Shown in pieces: positions 13,240 to 46,261 of a stretch of 46,261 bases of DNA. A program made the position numbers and the translations under genes. The stretch comes from Trueperaceae bacterium (GTDB lineage: Bacteria; Deinococcota; Deinococci; Deinococcales; Trueperaceae): positions 1 to 46,261 of the forward strand of contig JAABTL010000022.1 in NCBI GenBank assembly GCA_011389865.1. The letters are read 5' to 3'. Numbering within the stretch: position 1 is the first letter of the stretch; every line of letters begins with the position of its first letter. The notes beneath the pieces were generated by a model. The model was not told the DNA's origin and did no database searches. It worked only from the letters and a program-made list of their open reading frames with translations.

Positions 13240-15023
13240 TCGACGCCTTCCTGTTCCAACTGGTCCTGGTGCTGCTCGCCGCCTGGGCCGCCGGCAACCT
13301 CATCTCGCGCCTCGGCTACCCGGCGGTGCTGGGGGAGATCGGCGTCGGCATCCTGCTCGGGCCGCCGCTGCTCGGCCTGCTGCGGCCGGTCGACGGGCTG
13401 CAGGTGGTCGCCGAGCTGGGCGTCATCCTGATGATGCTCTACATCGGCCTCGAGATCGACCCGCGCGAGGTCGGGCGCGCCTCGCGCGTCGGCCTGCTCG
13501 CCGCCATCGGCGGCTTCGTGGTGCCGTTCGCGCTGGGCTACGGCGCGGTGATCCTCATGGGGGGCAACGCCTGGGAGGCGGTCTTCGTCGCGATGGCGAC
13601 CGGGGTGACCTCGCTGGCCACCAAGTCGCGCATCCTGCTCGACCTGCGCGTGCTCGACACCCGCATCGCCCACGTGATGATGGCCGGCGCCCTGCTCGCC
13701 GACACGCTGTCGTTGGTCGTGTTCGCGGGGCTGTTCGGCGTGTGGACCGCGGGTTCGCTGGAGCTGACGACCCTCGGTCCCGTCCTCGGCGGCATCGCCG
13801 TCTTCGTGGCCGGCGCCTGGGTGGTGGGCGCCTACGGGCTGCCACGGCTGTACCGCTTCCTCGAGCGCCGCGGCCTCACGGGCCGCACCTTCCACCTCAC
13901 GCTGGCGCTGGTGATCGGCCTGAGCTTCGCGGAGGGCGCGGAGCTGGCCGGGCTGCACGGCATCCTCGGCGCGTTCGTGGCCGGCATGTTCCTGCGCGAG
14001 AGCTACCGCGCGCGGCGCCTGTCGCACCGCGTCACCGAGGCGATCGGCGACGTCTCCGTCGGCTTCCTCGCGCCGGTGTTCTTCGTGACCGCCGGCTACG
14101 CCGTCACCTTCTCGGTCTTCCGCGAGCAGCTGGGGCTGCTGCTGGTGATCGTCGCGGTGGCGACGATCGGCAAGATCCTGGGGACGGTCCTGTTCTACCT
14201 GCCCTCCGGTTACGGCTGGCGCGAGGGCATGGTGGTCGGGTTCGGCATGAACGGCCGCGGCGCGGTCGAGATCATCATCGCGGGCATCGGCCTGGACCTC
14301 GGCATCATCGGGCCGGAGGTCTTCTCCATCCTGGTGTTCATGGCGATCTTCACGACCGCGTCCGTGCCGGTGCTGCTCAAGTGGGGCGTCGGCTGGCTCG
14401 AGCGGCGCGACGAGCTGGTGCGCGCCGACGACAGCAGCAAGCCGGTGTTGGTCGTGGGCGCCGGCTCGCTGGCGCGTCGCGTCGCGCTGCAGCTGTCCGC
14501 CGGCCGCCCCGTCCGGCTGCTCGACCTCAACGCCGCCAACGTCGCGGCGGCGCGGGCCGAGGGCCTCGACATCGTCCAGGGCGACGCGCTCGACCGCGCC
14601 ACGCTGCGCTCGGCGGGGGCGGAGGAGTGCGGCACGGTGCTGGCCATCACCCCGAACCCCGCCGTGAACGCGTTGGTCGCGCAGCGCGCCCGGGAGGACT
14701 TCCTGGTGCCGACCGTGCGGGCGATGCTGAAGCCCGACAGCGACGGCGGCCTGTTCGACGTGGTGGCGGCCCACGGCGCCTCGCCGCTGTGCGGCGCGCC
14801 GTTCGACTTCGCGCGCTGGGAGGCGGTGGCCCGGCGGAGCGGCGAGGAGCTCGTCGAGCTGACCGCCGCCGAGGCCCGCGAGCGCCTCGGCGAGGTCGAT
14901 CCGGACGTCGGGGCGCGCGACCTGCTGCCGCTGCTCGTTCGCCGCGGGAGCGTGGTCCGCCTCTTCGCGGGGGTGGAGAAGCTCCAGGAGGGGGACCGTG
15001 TCCTTGCCATCCGAGATGCCTGA
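13236..15023 (+). CDS. CPA2-family cation/proton antiporter with RCK_N domain
   Basis: 595 residues. About 12 membrane helices span residues 5-385, with the Na+/H+ exchanger core LGYPAVLGEIGVGILLGP near the N-terminus and the GLHGILGAFVAGMFLRE segment in the middle. Residues from about 400 form a Rossmann RCK/TrkA-N domain (VLVVGAGSLARRVALQL, then QGDALDRATLRSAG), as in KefB/KefC and related potassium or sodium antiporters, followed by a TrkA-C-like end. It exchanges Na+ or K+ for protons and is probably gated by nucleotide binding; ion specificity cannot be read from sequence. GTG at 13236 overlaps the mini-ORF stop; hisA starts inside its 3' end. Confidence 0.9.
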   Translation: MIDAFLFQLVLVLLAAWAAGNLISRLGYPAVLGEIGVGILLGPPLLGLLRPVDGLQVVAELGVILMMLYIGLEIDPREVGRASRVGLLAAIGGFVVPFALGYGAVILMGGNAWEAVFVAMATGVTSLATKSRILLDLRVLDTRIAHVMMAGALLADTLSLVVFAGLFGVWTAGSLELTTLGPVLGGIAVFVAGAWVVGAYGLPRLYRFLERRGLTGRTFHLTLALVIGLSFAEGAELAGLHGILGAFVAGMFLRESYRARRLSHRVTEAIGDVSVGFLAPVFFVTAGYAVTFSVFREQLGLLLVIVAVATIGKILGTVLFYLPSGYGWREGMVVGFGMNGRGAVEIIIAGIGLDLGIIGPEVFSILVFMAIFTTASVPVLLKWGVGWLERRDELVRADDSSKPVLVVGAGSLARRVALQLSAGRPVRLLDLNAANVAAARAEGLDIVQGDALDRATLRSAGAEECGTVLAITPNPAVNALVAQRAREDFLVPTVRAMLKPDSDGGLFDVVAAHGASPLCGAPFDFARWEAVARRSGEELVELTAAEARERLGEVDPDVGARDLLPLLVRRGSVVRLFAGVEKLQEGDRVLAIRDA

Positions 15024-15765
15024 GGCCGGAGCTCGCGAAGCGCCCGCGCGCGGCGGCTTCGCCGTCGTGCCGTGCGTCGACGTCCAGGGGGGCCGCGCCG
15101 TGCGCCTGACGGAGGGCGACCCGACGCGTGAGACCGTCTACTACCCGGATCCCGTCGCCGCCGGCGGTCACTGGCTGAGCCTCGGTGCGCGCGAGCTGCA
15201 CGTCGTCGACCTCGACGCGGCGCTCGGCGCCGGCGACAACCGCGGCGTGATCGAGGACCTGGCCGCCCTGGCGGCGCAGCGCGGCGCGCGCGTCGAGGTG
15301 GGTGGCGGCGTCCGCTCGCTCGCGGCGGCGGACGCCTGGCTGGCGCGGGTGCAGCGTGTGGTGCTCGGCACGGTCGCGGTCACCGACCCGGCGCTGGTGG
15401 GGCGCCTCGTGGAGCGCTACGGGCCCGAGCGGATCGTCGTCAGCGTCGACGCCCGCGACGGCCGGGTGGCGGTGCGTGGCTGGGTGGAGACGTCGGCGGT
15501 CGAGGCGACCGAGCTGGCGCGGCGCATGGACGAGATCGGCGTCCGGGAGCTGATCTACACCGACGTCAGCCGGGACGGCACCCTGCAGGGCGTCGATCCC
15601 GAACCGGTGGCGCGCGTGCGCGAGGCGTTCCCGCACCGCCTGATCGCCGGCGGCGGCGTGGCGGTCGACGCCGACCTCGACCTCTACGAGCGCCTGGGGC
15701 TCGACGGCGCGATCGTCGGCCGGGCGCTGTACGAGGGGACGGTCCGCTATCCCCGAGCTCCCTGA
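14998..15765 (+). CDS. hisA: HisA: phosphoribosylformimino-AICAR isomerase
   Basis: 255 residues, a TIM barrel. Motifs: [19 protein letters not shown] with the first catalytic Asp, EVGGGVRS for phosphate binding, [14 protein letters not shown] with the second catalytic Asp, and IAGGGV and [11 protein letters not shown] at the C-terminal phosphate site. It catalyses the Amadori isomerisation of ProFAR to PRFAR in histidine synthesis. GTG at 14998 has AGGAGG ideally placed (14987-14992) and overlaps the antiporter gene by 26 bases. About 20 residues precede the first strand. No other his genes are nearby. Confidence 0.93.
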
Positions 15766-16678
15766 GGTCGAGACCGTCCGCCGCGAGCTGGCGCCCTGGC
15801 TGACGGGGCGCACGGTGCTGGCGGTCGAGCGCGTCGACGCGCCGATCGGTCCCAAGACGGCCGGCCTGGAGCGGGCCATCGGCCAGCGGATCGAGGCGGT
15901 GACCCGTCGCGGCAAGTTCCTGCTGCTCCCGCTGCGACCGGCGTCGGCGTGGACGTCGCCCCTGCCCGCGGGCACGGCCGCGGACGCGGACGCGGGCGGC
16001 GACGAGCTGGTGGTGCACCTCGGCATGACGGGCGTGCTTTCGCCGCGACCGCCCGTGGCGCACCTCAGGCTCCTCCTCCGCCTCGACGGCGGGCGGCCCG
16101 ACGTGCTGTACGTGCAGGACGCTCGTCGCTTCGGTCGCGTGCTGGTCGTTCCGAGGGGCGACTACCGCGCGCTGCCGACGCTCGCCGCGATGGGCCCCGA
16201 GCCGCTCGGCGACGCGTTCACGGTCACCGCCTTCGCGGCGGCGCTGGCGCGCTCCGCGCAGCCCGTCAAGGCCTTCCTGCTGTCGCAGCGACCGGTGGCG
16301 GGGGTGGGGAACATCTACGCCGACGAGGCGCTGTGGCGTGCCCGCGTGCACCCGGCGTCGCCGGCCCGCGCGCTGTCGCGCCCGAAGGTCCGCGCACTGC
16401 ACGCGGCGATCCGCGAGGTCCTGGCGGCGGCGGTGGAGCTCCAGGGCACCACGCTCTACGATTACCGGACCGTGAACGGCGAGGTCGGCGCGTACCTGGA
16501 GAAGCTCGATGCCTACGGCCACGACGGCGACCCCTGCCCGCGCTGCGGCACGCCGCTCGTGCGCAGCGTGGTCGGGCAGCGCGGCACGCACCACTGCCCG
16601 CGCTGCCAGCGGCGGGCGCGGTCCGACGCTTCCGCCCGCCGACGGCGCGATCGTTCGATGCCGGGGGGCGCGCGGTGA
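15749..16678 (+). CDS. mutM: Formamidopyrimidine-DNA glycosylase with AUC start codon
   Basis: 309 residues if translation begins at ATC 15749. Fpg/MutM removes 8-oxoguanine and cuts abasic sites using its N-terminal proline (Pro2). The reading frame shows [13 protein letters not shown] directly after ATC at 15749-15751, and no ATG, GTG or TTG lies at that position. Later motifs are intact: Lys56 (RRGKFLLLPL), HLGMTG, the VAGVGNIYADEALW loop, and the zinc finger CPRCG...GQRGTHHCPRCQ. The only nearby canonical start (GTG 15815) would delete Pro2 and Glu3 and kill the enzyme. GAGGGGAC at 15733-15740 could be the ribosome binding site. The frame overlaps the hisA end by 17 bases and the thioesterase by GTGA. 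A small loop insertion (residues about 65-85) and a basic C-terminal tail make it longer than usual. Confidence 0.9.
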   Translation: MPELPEVETVRRELAPWLTGRTVLAVERVDAPIGPKTAGLERAIGQRIEAVTRRGKFLLLPLRPASAWTSPLPAGTAADADAGGDELVVHLGMTGVLSPRPPVAHLRLLLRLDGGRPDVLYVQDARRFGRVLVVPRGDYRALPTLAAMGPEPLGDAFTVTAFAAALARSAQPVKAFLLSQRPVAGVGNIYADEALWRARVHPASPARALSRPKVRALHAAIREVLAAAVELQGTTLYDYRTVNGEVGAYLEKLDAYGHDGDPCPRCGTPLVRSVVGQRGTHHCPRCQRRARSDASARRRRDRSMPGGAR

Positions 16679-17157
16679 GCGGCGACCTGCTGCACGTCAC
16701 GCCGATCCAGGTCCGCTTCGGCGATACCGATCGCTTCGGGCACATCAACAACGCCAGCTTCGCCACCTACTCGGAGAGCGCCCGCATCGAGCTGATCACC
16801 TCGCTCGGCTACCCGCTCGGGGGGATGATCCTGGCGCACATGGCGATCGACTTCCGGCGGCAGCTCCACGTGGGCGACCCGCTGCTGGTGCTCAGTCGGA
16901 TCGACCGCATCGGCCGCAGCTCGATCGGGATGCGCCAGGCGCTGCTGCGGCCGGGCGCGCCGGAGGCCGGCCACGGGCCCGCGCGGGCCGTGGCCTTGGT
17001 CGAGGCGCCGCGAGGCGAGGTGGTCGCCGACATCGCCACCGTGGTCGTGACGTACGACTACCGCGAGGAGCGCTCGGTGCCGCTGCCCGAAGACCTGCGA
17101 GCGCGTCTGGAACCGTTCTGCGGTCCCCTGCCGGGCGGCGGAGGGGCGGAAGGGTAA
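16675..17157 (+). CDS. Hotdog-fold acyl-CoA thioesterase (4HBT type)
   Basis: 160 residues with the 4HBT signature VRFGDTDRFGHINNASFATY: Asp and His-Asn as in YbgC/FcbC-type thioesterases. It probably hydrolyses an acyl-CoA; the substrate is unknown. GTG at 16675 overlaps the mutM stop (GTGA). It is the last gene of the operon, followed by a 7-bp hairpin. Confidence 0.88.
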   Translation: MSGDLLHVTPIQVRFGDTDRFGHINNASFATYSESARIELITSLGYPLGGMILAHMAIDFRRQLHVGDPLLVLSRIDRIGRSSIGMRQALLRPGAPEAGHGPARAVALVEAPRGEVVADIATVVVTYDYREERSVPLPEDLRARLEPFCGPLPGGGGAEG

Positions 17158-17167
17158 CACCCCGAAA

Positions 17168-17185
17168 TCGGGACGAATGTCCCGA
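17168..17185. terminator. Short hairpin after thioesterase gene
   Basis: TCGGGAC at 17168-17174 and GTCCCGA at 17179-17185 pair around GAAT, ten bases after the thioesterase stop. It has no T-run, and lies about 20 bases before the -10 of the downstream RNA. Confidence 0.45.
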
Positions 17186-17190
17186 CCTCC

Positions 17191-17221
17191 CCTGGGGGGC
17201 GTCGCTAACCTGGAGTTGCAC
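17191..17221 (+). promoter_or_regulatory. Promoter with G-run block and TAACCT -10
   Basis: CCCTGGGGGG followed after six bases by TAACCT (17206-17211) and then GGAG. The same arrangement (C-run, GGGGGG, six bases, TAACTT, then GAG) recurs at 27263-27290, which suggests a shared promoter or operator type. A start near 17218 would feed the structured RNA. Confidence 0.5.
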
Positions 17222-17505
17222 AGAAGGTGGTTCGCGCGCCGATTAGATCGCTCCGGTGGACCGGAGGGTCAAGAAGGAGCCCCACCCGACGTGCCGTCGT
17301 CGAGCGGCGTCACCCTGAACCCGAGGGGCGTGGAGCGCAAGGCTCCTCGGGCCACAGGACGCGAGAGACCCGCAAGGCAGCGCTGGGATGGGCCCGGCGC
17401 GGGGTGACCCCCCGACGGCGAGACCGTTCGACGGGATGCACCACGCAAGACGCATCCCGTGCAACCAGACCCCGCGACGCGTACGGTCGCGGGGTCTGGT
17501 GGTTC
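17218..17505 (+). ncRNA. Putative structured non-coding RNA, family unknown
   Basis: About 285 bases lie between the rightward thioesterase gene and the leftward MFS gene with no plus-strand gene to regulate. The stretch is full of hairpins: CTCCGG-TGGA-CCGGAG near 17251-17266, AGGAGCC at about 17275 that can pair with GGCTCCT at about 17341, ACGGGATGC/GCATCCCGT (17431-17439 with 17452-17460, nine perfect pairs) and a final 15-bp terminator stem. A promoter-like block precedes it. I looked for core motifs of RNase P RNA, tmRNA, SRP RNA and common riboswitches and did not find them. A 38-codon GTG frame at 17291 exists but looks like random GC-rich sequence. Confidence 0.45.
17464..17500. terminator. 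Perfect 15-bp terminator hairpin
   Basis: ACCAGACCCCGCGAC (17464-17478) pairs perfectly with GTCGCGGGGTCTGGT (17486-17500) around GCGTACG. On the plus strand it ends the putative RNA and is followed by GGTTCGTG; on the minus strand it lies 47 bases after the MFS stop and is followed by TTGC. It can serve both directions. Confidence 0.75.
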
Positions 17506-17547
17506 GTGTGACGGCGAGCGGCCCGGCCGGAGCCAGGGTCGCAAGCT

Positions 17548-18831
17548 TCAGCCGCGCGTCGGCGATCCGGCGTGGCGTCGCGCCTGCGGCGGCCGCAGCG
17601 CGATGGCGCAGATCAGCGCGAGCGCCAGCGGCACCGGGATCAGAGCCCACAGCGTGGGCAGGTAGCCGCCGAGGAGCTCCGGTCCCCAGGCCAGCAGGAC
17701 CGGCCCGGCCGCGGCGCCGGCCACCGACAGCGTCTGGGCGGTGCCCTTGATGCCTCCGATCGCCGCGCGCCCGAAGAAGCGCGCGAACGCGGTCCCGGAG
17801 ACGTTGCCCATGACGCCCTGCGTCACCCCGATGACGATCCCGTACAGCGGCAGCGTCACGGCCGTCACGTGGCCGGCGAGCAGCAGCGCGACCGCCTGCA
17901 GCACGAGGCCCGCCACCACGGGCACGCGCGGGTCGAGCCGGTCGGAGAGCGCGCCGATGCCGAGGTGGGTCATCGCGATCACCCACGCGAGCCAGGCGAA
18001 GGCCGTGGTGGCGGTCGCCCGGTCGATCCCGCGCGCGCCCATGAGGTCGTAGTGGTGGAAGATCAGACCGGTGCCCAGCGCGCTGATGCAGGCGACCGCG
18101 CCCGCGAGCAGCCAGAAGGTCAGCGTGCCGCGCGCCTCGGCCGCGGTGAAGCGCGGCTCGGGAGGCAGCGTCCTCACCTTCGCGGACGCTGGTGCGCGGC
18201 CGTCGGGCAGTGCGCCGAAGCGTTCCGGGTGGCCGCGGAAGAAGGCGATGCCCAGCGGCAGGATCGTGGCCGCCACCAGCGCGCCCAGCCCGGCGTACGC
18301 GACCCGCCAGCCGAACGCGCCGATCCATGTTTCGATCAGCCAGGGGAAGCCGGCGGTGGCCAGCGCCATGCCCACGCCGGTCACGCCCACGGCGAGGCCG
18401 CGCCGGCTGACGAACCAGACGTTGATCACGTGCAGGCTGACGAGGCCCAACGCGCCCTGGCCGAGGCCGCGCAGGAGCACGAACCCCAGCGCCAGCGCCG
18501 GCAGCGAGCTCACCGTCGCCATGAACACGCAGGCGGCGGCGAGGCCGGCGGCGATCCAACCGACCGCCAGGCGAGGACCGCGGCGGTCGATCGAGCGACC
18601 GACGAAGGGCAGCGCCAACGCCCCGGCCAGCGTGCCCAGCGTGTACATCAGCGAGACCGTCTGCCGCGTCGTGCCGAGCTCGTCGATGATCGGATCGAGG
18701 AAGACGGAGACGCCGACCGTCTGCCCCGGGGTCGTCATCATCAGGCCCAGCGTCCCGACGACGAGGATCACCCAGCCGTAGTGGACCGGCGACCGTTCGA
18801 TCGTGCGGGAGCGGAGGGTGGGTTCGGGCAT
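17548..18831 (-). CDS. MFS transporter (12 membrane helices)
   Basis: 427 residues with 12 predicted helices and a central loop around residues 195-225. The N-terminus HYGWVILVVGTLGLMMTTPGQTVGVSVF and the loop LPFVGRSIDRRGPRLAV (motif A-like) place it in the major facilitator superfamily, near the group of monocarboxylate/oxalate-type carriers; the substrate is not known. The open frame runs upstream to 19743, but ATG at 18831 follows TACGGT by six bases (leaderless layout) and starts the natural N-terminus. It shares no operon with neighbours. Confidence 0.87.
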   Translation of the reverse strand: MPEPTLRSRTIERSPVHYGWVILVVGTLGLMMTTPGQTVGVSVFLDPIIDELGTTRQTVSLMYTLGTLAGALALPFVGRSIDRRGPRLAVGWIAAGLAAACVFMATVSSLPALALGFVLLRGLGQGALGLVSLHVINVWFVSRRGLAVGVTGVGMALATAGFPWLIETWIGAFGWRVAYAGLGALVAATILPLGIAFFRGHPERFGALPDGRAPASAKVRTLPPEPRFTAAEARGTLTFWLLAGAVACISALGTGLIFHHYDLMGARGIDRATATTAFAWLAWVIAMTHLGIGALSDRLDPRVPVVAGLVLQAVALLLAGHVTAVTLPLYGIVIGVTQGVMGNVSGTAFARFFGRAAIGGIKGTAQTLSVAGAAAGPVLLAWGPELLGGYLPTLWALIPVPLALALICAIALRPPQARRHAGSPTRG

Positions 18832-18837
18832 CACGCC

Positions 18838-18843
18838 ACCGTA
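18838..18843 (-). promoter_or_regulatory. -10 element of leaderless MFS transcript
   Basis: The minus strand reads TACGGT, six bases before the ATG at 18831. Confidence 0.5.
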
Positions 18844-18878
18844 CCGCCGCTCGCTGGGCGTGGGCGAGGCGTCGCCGC

Positions 18879-19688
18879 CTAGGGGTCGGCGAGCATGGCG
18901 AGGAACGCGTCGACCGCCTCGGGGTCGAACTGGCGGCCCCGCTCGGCGCGCAGGTGTGCGTGGACCTCGTCCTCGGTCCACGCGCGGCGGTACGGTCGGT
19001 CGCTCCGTAGCGCGTCGTACACGTCGACGACGGCGAAGATGCGGGCGAGCCGGGGGATCGTCTCGCCGGCGAGGCCGTCCGGGTAGCCGCCCCCGTCCCA
19101 GCGCTCGTGGTGCGAGCGCACGACGGTCGTCGCCTCGCGCAACTCCGGCAGGCCGAGCAGCAACTCGTGCCCCAGCACGGTGTGGTGGCGCATCTCCGTC
19201 CACTCGTCCTCGTCGAGCGGCCCGGGTTTGCCCAGCACCGCGTCGCGCACGCCGATCTTGCCCACGTCGTGCAGCAGCGCGCCGTGCCGCAGGTTCTCCA
19301 ACTCCTCGCGGCCGAGCCCGAGCCGCTGCCCCAGCCGCTGCGCGAGCTCGGTCACCCGCCGCGCGTGCCCGCCGGTCTCGTGCTCGCGCAGATCGAGGGC
19401 CCGCGCCCAACCCTCGATCGCGGCGTCGTACGCCTGCCGCTGCGTCGCGAGCGCCTGGCGATGGCGGCGGGCCATCCACAGCTCCAGCAGGAACACCAGG
19501 CCCGCCGCCACGACGACGTACGCCCACCCCTTCACCGTCTGCCACTCGGTCAGGGTGACGGGGTCGCCGGCGATCCGCAGCAGCCAGCGGTCCGAGAACA
19601 GGATGTAGGGGATCGACAACACCAGCAGCACCAGGGAGATGGTGCCCGGCCGCTGCAGCCGAACGCGCGGGCGTGGTCTCGGCGTCAC
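18879..19688 (-). CDS. Membrane-anchored HD-GYP domain protein
   Basis: 269 residues. Two membrane helices (about 17-35 and 53-72) are followed by a short linker and an HD-GYP domain: HARRVTELAQRLG, the HD pair in LLHDVGKIGVRD, HHERWDGGGYPDGLAG for the GYP motif, and VVDVYDALRSDRPYR. Such domains hydrolyse cyclic di-GMP or related second messengers. It lacks a receiver or sensor domain. GTG at 19688 follows TAGGCT by six bases. Confidence 0.9.
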   Translation of the reverse strand: MTPRPRPRVRLQRPGTISLVLLVLSIPYILFSDRWLLRIAGDPVTLTEWQTVKGWAYVVVAAGLVFLLELWMARRHRQALATQRQAYDAAIEGWARALDLREHETGGHARRVTELAQRLGQRLGLGREELENLRHGALLHDVGKIGVRDAVLGKPGPLDEDEWTEMRHHTVLGHELLLGLPELREATTVVRSHHERWDGGGYPDGLAGETIPRLARIFAVVDVYDALRSDRPYRRAWTEDEVHAHLRAERGRQFDPEAVDAFLAMLADP

Positions 19689-45893: not shown

Positions 45894-46261
45894 GGTTACG
45901 TTAATAAGGGCACACGGTGGATGCCTTGGCTGCAGAACCGATGAAGGACGTGGCTACCTGCGATAAGCCTCGGGGAGCTGGAAGCAAGCTTTGATCCGGG
46001 GATGTCCGAATGGGGAAACCCACACGAGCGAACCTCGTGTACCCATGCGTGAATCCATAGCGCATGTGGAGGGAACCTAGGGAACTGAAACATCTAAGTA
46101 CCTAGAGGAAAAGAAAGAAACATCGATTCCCCCAGTAGTGGCGAACGAAAAGGGAAGAGCCCAAACCGCGGTCTACGGACCGCGGGGTTGTAGGACCAGC
46201 AACATCGACTCGAGAGTCTAGCCGAAGCGCACTGGAAAGGCGCGCCATAGTGGGTGAAAGC
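45894..46261 (+). rRNA. rrl: 23S ribosomal RNA, 5' part
   Basis: The sequence GGTTACGTTAATAAGGGCAC followed by ACGGTGGATGCCTTGGC is the conserved 23S 5' end. Further domain I landmarks are GCGATAAGCCTCGGGGAGCT, GAATGGGGAAACCC, GGAACTGAAACATCTAAGTA and CCCAGTAGTGGCGAACGAAA. The gene runs off the window. The exact 5' end is set by homology, to within a few bases. The gene before it is pxpA, not a 16S or a tRNA. Confidence 0.95.

Follow-up and report, generated by a model that had tools for sequence, protein, structure and literature searches.

FnrS of E. coli, activated by FNR, is a stand-alone RNA co-regulated with respiration genes. Its promoter is of the class II activator type: the N4-spaced palindrome is placed at -42.5, and 19 of the 23 promoters activated by FNR in E. 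coli carry the site at -41.5 +/- 4 (PMC3688515). The DosR-activated RNA DrrS (MTS1338) of M. tuberculosis, which is processed at about nucleotide 108, has an activator site overlapping the -35 region, resembling class II promoters (PMC5360333). For OsdR, a Streptomyces relative of DevR, the listed predicted sites include GGGGACGATCGTCCCC (PMC5069765). Within the phylum of the DNA studied here, the Deinococcus radiodurans stress sRNAs OsiA, OsiR, dsr11 and DnrH are reported as regulatory RNAs (PMC6843392, PMC7247583, PMC7022480, PMC6798082). A literature search for small RNAs of Truepera returned no relevant paper.

The locus described here lies in a contig of a Trueperaceae bacterium; "window" indicates the whole stretch of DNA analyzed, 46,261 nucleotides, at the end of which a 23S rRNA gene starts (45894-46261). 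Judged by the fpg gene, the nearest named relative is another Trueperaceae genome, a MAG. Like FnrS, the predicted RNA stands alone behind an N4-spaced palindrome near -41.5 from its putative start, with no -35 box, and shares its promoter pattern with genes of respiration. It differs in the half-site (GGGAC here, TTGAT for FnrS), in being about 290 nt long with two structured domains, and in matching no Rfam model. DrrS has a similarly placed activator site, but it undergoes processing and belongs to another phylum, and homology to the Trueperaceae RNA was not detected. The best explanation is an RNA which may work like FnrS or DrrS/MTS1338, being homologous to neither.

Locus, fold and conservation

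The RNA occupies the intergenic gap between the stop codon of a thioesterase gene, at 17157, and a converging MFS transporter gene. Its start was placed at about 17217-17218, from the position of the -10 element and of a conserved TGCAC. The features of the region, with the evidence for each, are the following:

14998-15765, + strand: hisA/hisF-like gene, upstream of the RNA
15815-16678, + strand: fpg/mutM gene (DNA repair), upstream of the RNA
16675-17157, + strand: thioesterase gene, upstream of the RNA
17170-17183, + strand: activator-type palindrome GGGACGAATGTCCC, centred at about -41.5 from the putative start
17206-17211, + strand: -10-like hexamer TAACCT (TACCCT in most relatives), at an aligned position in relatives
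about 17217-17508, + strand: structured RNA, about 290 nt (conservation and covariation; predicted transcript)
17218-17294, + strand: domain I, a rod-like hairpin closed by GCAC/GUGC, with helices GGUGG/CCACC and GCGCC/GG-GC (model helices 1-4)
17246-17270, + strand: P2, apical hairpin of domain I, GAUC-G-CUCCGG/CCGGAG-GGUC
17270-17277, + strand: purine-rich unpaired motif (A/G)AGAAGG of domain I (near-invariant alignment columns)
17296-17420, + strand: domain II, a three-way junction inside closing helix P3 (17296-17302 with 17413-17420)
17320-17351, + strand: P4 hairpin with conserved GCGUGGAG loop (model helix 8)
17380-17400, + strand: P5 hairpin, GCGCUGGG-AUGGG-CCCGGCGC (model helix 9)
17430-17462, + strand: pre-terminator hairpin GACGGGAUGC/GCAUCCCGU (alignment with genus relatives)
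17465-17499 (core), + strand: terminal GC-rich hairpin with a 15-bp stem
17548-18882, minus strand: MFS transporter gene, converging on the RNA from the right

The segment 17208-17510 has a folding energy of -159.9 kcal/mol (z = -3.2), and none of 100 shuffled sequences was equally stable. Since the genome is GC-rich, folding energy by itself is indecisive, and it is the comparison with relatives that decides. Relatives were first found by a DNA search within the family, and a covariance model was then built from eight of them. Among 111 genomes of the order, the model matches 11, all Trueperaceae and belonging to three genera (g1, g4, g14); matches are full-length in ten, while the eleventh runs off a contig end. 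The other 72 genomes of the order, which belong to other families, gave no match to the model; in this the RNA appears to differ from the D. radiodurans stress sRNAs.

In the ten genomes, both partners have changed, with pairing kept, in 17 of the 48 model base pairs. Against 0.163 for shuffled alignments, the covariation score is 0.280, a value reached in none of 500 shuffles; sliding the partners by one column lowers the paired cells from 94.7% to 41-47%. Conservation of the helices in relatives was one of the two points on which the preliminary description had let its proposal, a structured, free-standing RNA belonging to no recognised family, stand or fall; with covarying helices, a conserved promoter of its own and no Rfam match, the proposal stands, and we regard a real, conserved structured RNA as almost certain. 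The excess of G-U over A-C cells in the alignment (28 versus 8) fits an RNA read from the + strand, with which the orientation of the promoter agrees.

Single helices behave in the same way. P2 was left out of the covariance model and its pairing was compared separately: in relatives it reads CUCGCG/CGCGAG or CCUGCG/CGCAGG, and all positions are paired in nine genomes, with several double changes. In P3, six of ten pairs are changed on both sides; P5 features compensatory changes of G-C to A-U and of U-A to C-G. The pre-terminator hairpin is found in genus relatives as GGCGGGACGC/GCGUCCCGU and AACGGGGCGC/GCGUCCCGU. Of the unpaired segments, the near-invariant ones are rich in purines (AGAAGG, GUGGAG, AUGGG). 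The apical loops GCGUGGAG and AUGGG are conserved, each on a rigid stem. The size of domain II varies between genera, from about 80 to 126 nt. The 15-bp terminal stem, already pointed out as a terminator, is real, and relatives in g4 and g14 have such a hairpin too, though its sequence differs there. Its tail is poor in U and a consensus terminator scan of the locus gave no match; intrinsic termination of the RNA at this hairpin is probable, and the hairpin may also terminate the converging MFS gene.

The Rfam scan suggested in the preliminary description was run: no family matched in the window or in eight relatives. At a loose threshold, two chance-level matches appear in the window and none in the relatives. 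CrfA (RF01527), whose gathering score is 38, reaches 15.3 bits here (E = 3.7), a chance match whose sole likeness is a weak similarity of GC-rich hairpins. RNase P RNA (RF00010) has no match in the window and is encoded on another contig of the genome (258.7 bits); tmRNA (RF00023) has none at the RNA locus and is found on contig C22 (130.7 bits). Models of 6S RNA, SRP RNA and riboswitches did not match even at the loose threshold. The earlier exclusion, by eye, of RNase P RNA, tmRNA, SRP RNA and riboswitches is thus confirmed. The RNA is a family of its own within Trueperaceae, with no match in the RNA family libraries searched; a family with strong covariation is thereby added for a little studied group of bacteria.

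In g1, g4 and g14 genomes the RNA is located directly 3' of fpg; in g1 and g4 the MFS gene comes next and converges on it, so that the absence of a downstream gene on the same strand, observed before in the window, extends to both genera. The fixed place beside fpg made a search by position possible in further genera. In five g8 genomes and one g11 genome, the region 3' of fpg has a promoter of the same type and, behind it, a more divergent RNA whose domain II is similar, a strong closing helix GCUUCCGG(G)/CCCGGAAGC surrounding the hairpin CCGGGA-CCCGG. The first model, from g1, g4 and g14, gives weak scores on these loci (best E 0.02-0.2); a second one, built from g8 and g11, recovers its own members and nothing else. 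Position, promoter and architecture make homology of the two groups likely, short of proof since their models do not find each other significantly. In the remaining genera whose fpg locus could be read, including the complete genome G036 (3,260,398 bases), no box is present 3' of fpg; in G015, of the same genus as G036, the contig stops just past fpg and the missing match is uninformative. In three g8 genomes (L081, L082, L211) a short-chain dehydrogenase gene in the same orientation comes straight after the RNA variant, no evident terminator separating the two. At L078, L083 and L062 the RNA is succeeded by a hairpin which is GC-rich and resembles a terminator.

Promoter and genes sharing its box

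At 16 of 17 RNA loci, GGAC-N4-GTCC is found 23-25 bases 5' of a TANNNT hexamer, while the four central bases of the box and the spacer between box and hexamer are variable. A scan of the RNA locus found no sigma-70 -35/-10 pair. The promoter-like block noticed previously is real, but of a different kind: instead of a sigma-70 pair, it comprises the activator-type palindrome and the -10-like TAACCT. The interval first proposed, 17191-17510, misses the palindrome, which is the main element of control. It is highly probable that the RNA has its own activator-type promoter.

The box is not confined to the RNA. GGGACN4GTCCC has 11 sites in this genome, versus one for the reversed pattern; in 39 genomes of the family, the full promoter pattern has 35 sites, versus six for the reversed control. 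The pattern is followed by a class III multihaem cytochrome gene in the genome under study and in G014, G016 and G033, the class being confirmed by Pfam for two of the four genomes and assigned by sequence likeness in the others. The corresponding box sites are G000:C11:142131-142175 (L111), L112, L113 and L105. In g1, a second protein follows the cytochrome, suggesting the gene order of alternative complex III; judged from the sequence, the cytochrome genes behind the box appear to head an alternative complex III operon. The pattern also precedes genes for the small subunit of NiFe hydrogenase (G013, G016; L093, L095) and for di-haem cytochrome c peroxidase (G017, G022, genus g8; L096, L098), one or two of each being confirmed by Pfam and the rest labelled by sequence likeness. 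A DUF302 protein gene is found behind it as well, and several other genes so placed are not obviously respiratory.

At two further sites, L107 (G035) and L114 (G017), box promoters are followed by hairpin-rich stretches with no obvious gene close by (about 1500-1800 in the turned locus). These stretches, which do not match the covariance model of the RNA, might encode additional short RNAs belonging to the regulon.

The activator box and the link to respiration genes are new with respect to the preliminary description. Membership of the RNA in a respiratory or redox regulon seems fairly probable: the promoter motif ties it to cytochrome, hydrogenase and peroxidase genes, and both the proposed respiratory regulon and its RNA arm become directly testable.

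Proposed function and alternatives

The reading we prefer, to which we assign a probability of about 0.5, is that the RNA stands alone, is switched by an activator as part of a respiratory or redox regulon, and regulates in trans. A dimeric activator, responsive to a respiratory or redox signal, would bind GGGAC-N4-GTCCC at about -41.5 and recruit RNA polymerase to a promoter devoid of a -35 box. In the transcript of about 290 nt, a rod-like 5' domain would be followed by one with a three-way junction and then by the GC-rich terminator. Acting in trans, its unpaired AGAAGG, GUGGAG and AUGGG would most likely pair with mRNAs of the same response, where purine-rich segments could meet pyrimidine-rich stretches. 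For base pairing as the mechanism of a regulatory sRNA we see roughly even odds. Typical base-pairing sRNAs are shorter and have simpler folds, a hint that antisense pairing is perhaps not the main job of this one. A large RNA under the same respiratory promoter might instead work through its fold, as the partner of a protein, as a binder of RNA polymerase similar to 6S in function, or as a scaffold. Its length, the two covarying domains with their three-way junction and the conserved loops on rigid stems agree with such a role; the free variation in size of domain II would be unusual for a conserved RNP core, and no Rfam family, 6S and SRP included, matched at the loose threshold. This alternative is rather unlikely, and slightly more doubtful still is its specific form, a large two-domain RNA (RNP, polymerase regulator or sensor) unlike any known RNA class, its synthesis induced by a respiratory regulator of the family which is itself undescribed.

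Regulation in trans has also to be weighed against explanations which would deprive the RNA of an independent role. If the RNA were a leader acting in cis on the gene behind it, as a riboswitch or attenuator, this would fit the short-chain dehydrogenase arrangement of the three g8 genomes. Against it, the neighbouring gene in g1 and g4 is convergent, leaving nothing downstream for the RNA to control, and terminator-like hairpins follow the RNA at L078, L083 and L062; a leader is very improbable. The hairpin at 17465-17499, with converging genes on either side, could end the transcripts of both, and the region would then be no more than a terminator and 3' UTR common to the fpg-thioesterase and MFS operons. 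This is hardly a credible account: 5' of the hairpin lie a promoter box and covarying helices extending over 200 nt, which are conserved separately. Least probable is a small protein gene, with hairpins as a by-product of GC-rich coding sequence. Reading frames are often open, as expected from the high GC content, and a GTG (17291) follows AAGGAG at a plausible distance; yet the core changes in length by 8, 7, 2 and 1 nt, none of them divisible by three, there is no one frame that is conserved, and double compensatory changes track the helices.

Candidate proteins for the box

The GGGAC half-site resembles the listed OsdR sites, the example given at the beginning having the same form as the box. 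LexA was rejected as the binding protein, the LexA-like genes retrieved having no GGAC-N4-GTCC box in front. None of the Crp/Fnr and NarL-type regulator genes examined in this genome has the palindrome nearby. The genome encodes eight GerE-domain proteins. One of them is a lead for the box-binding protein, the NarL-type response regulator at L236 (G000:C3:5891-6058): its recognition helix, EKTVRN, is one that we take to be close to the recognition helix of DosR.
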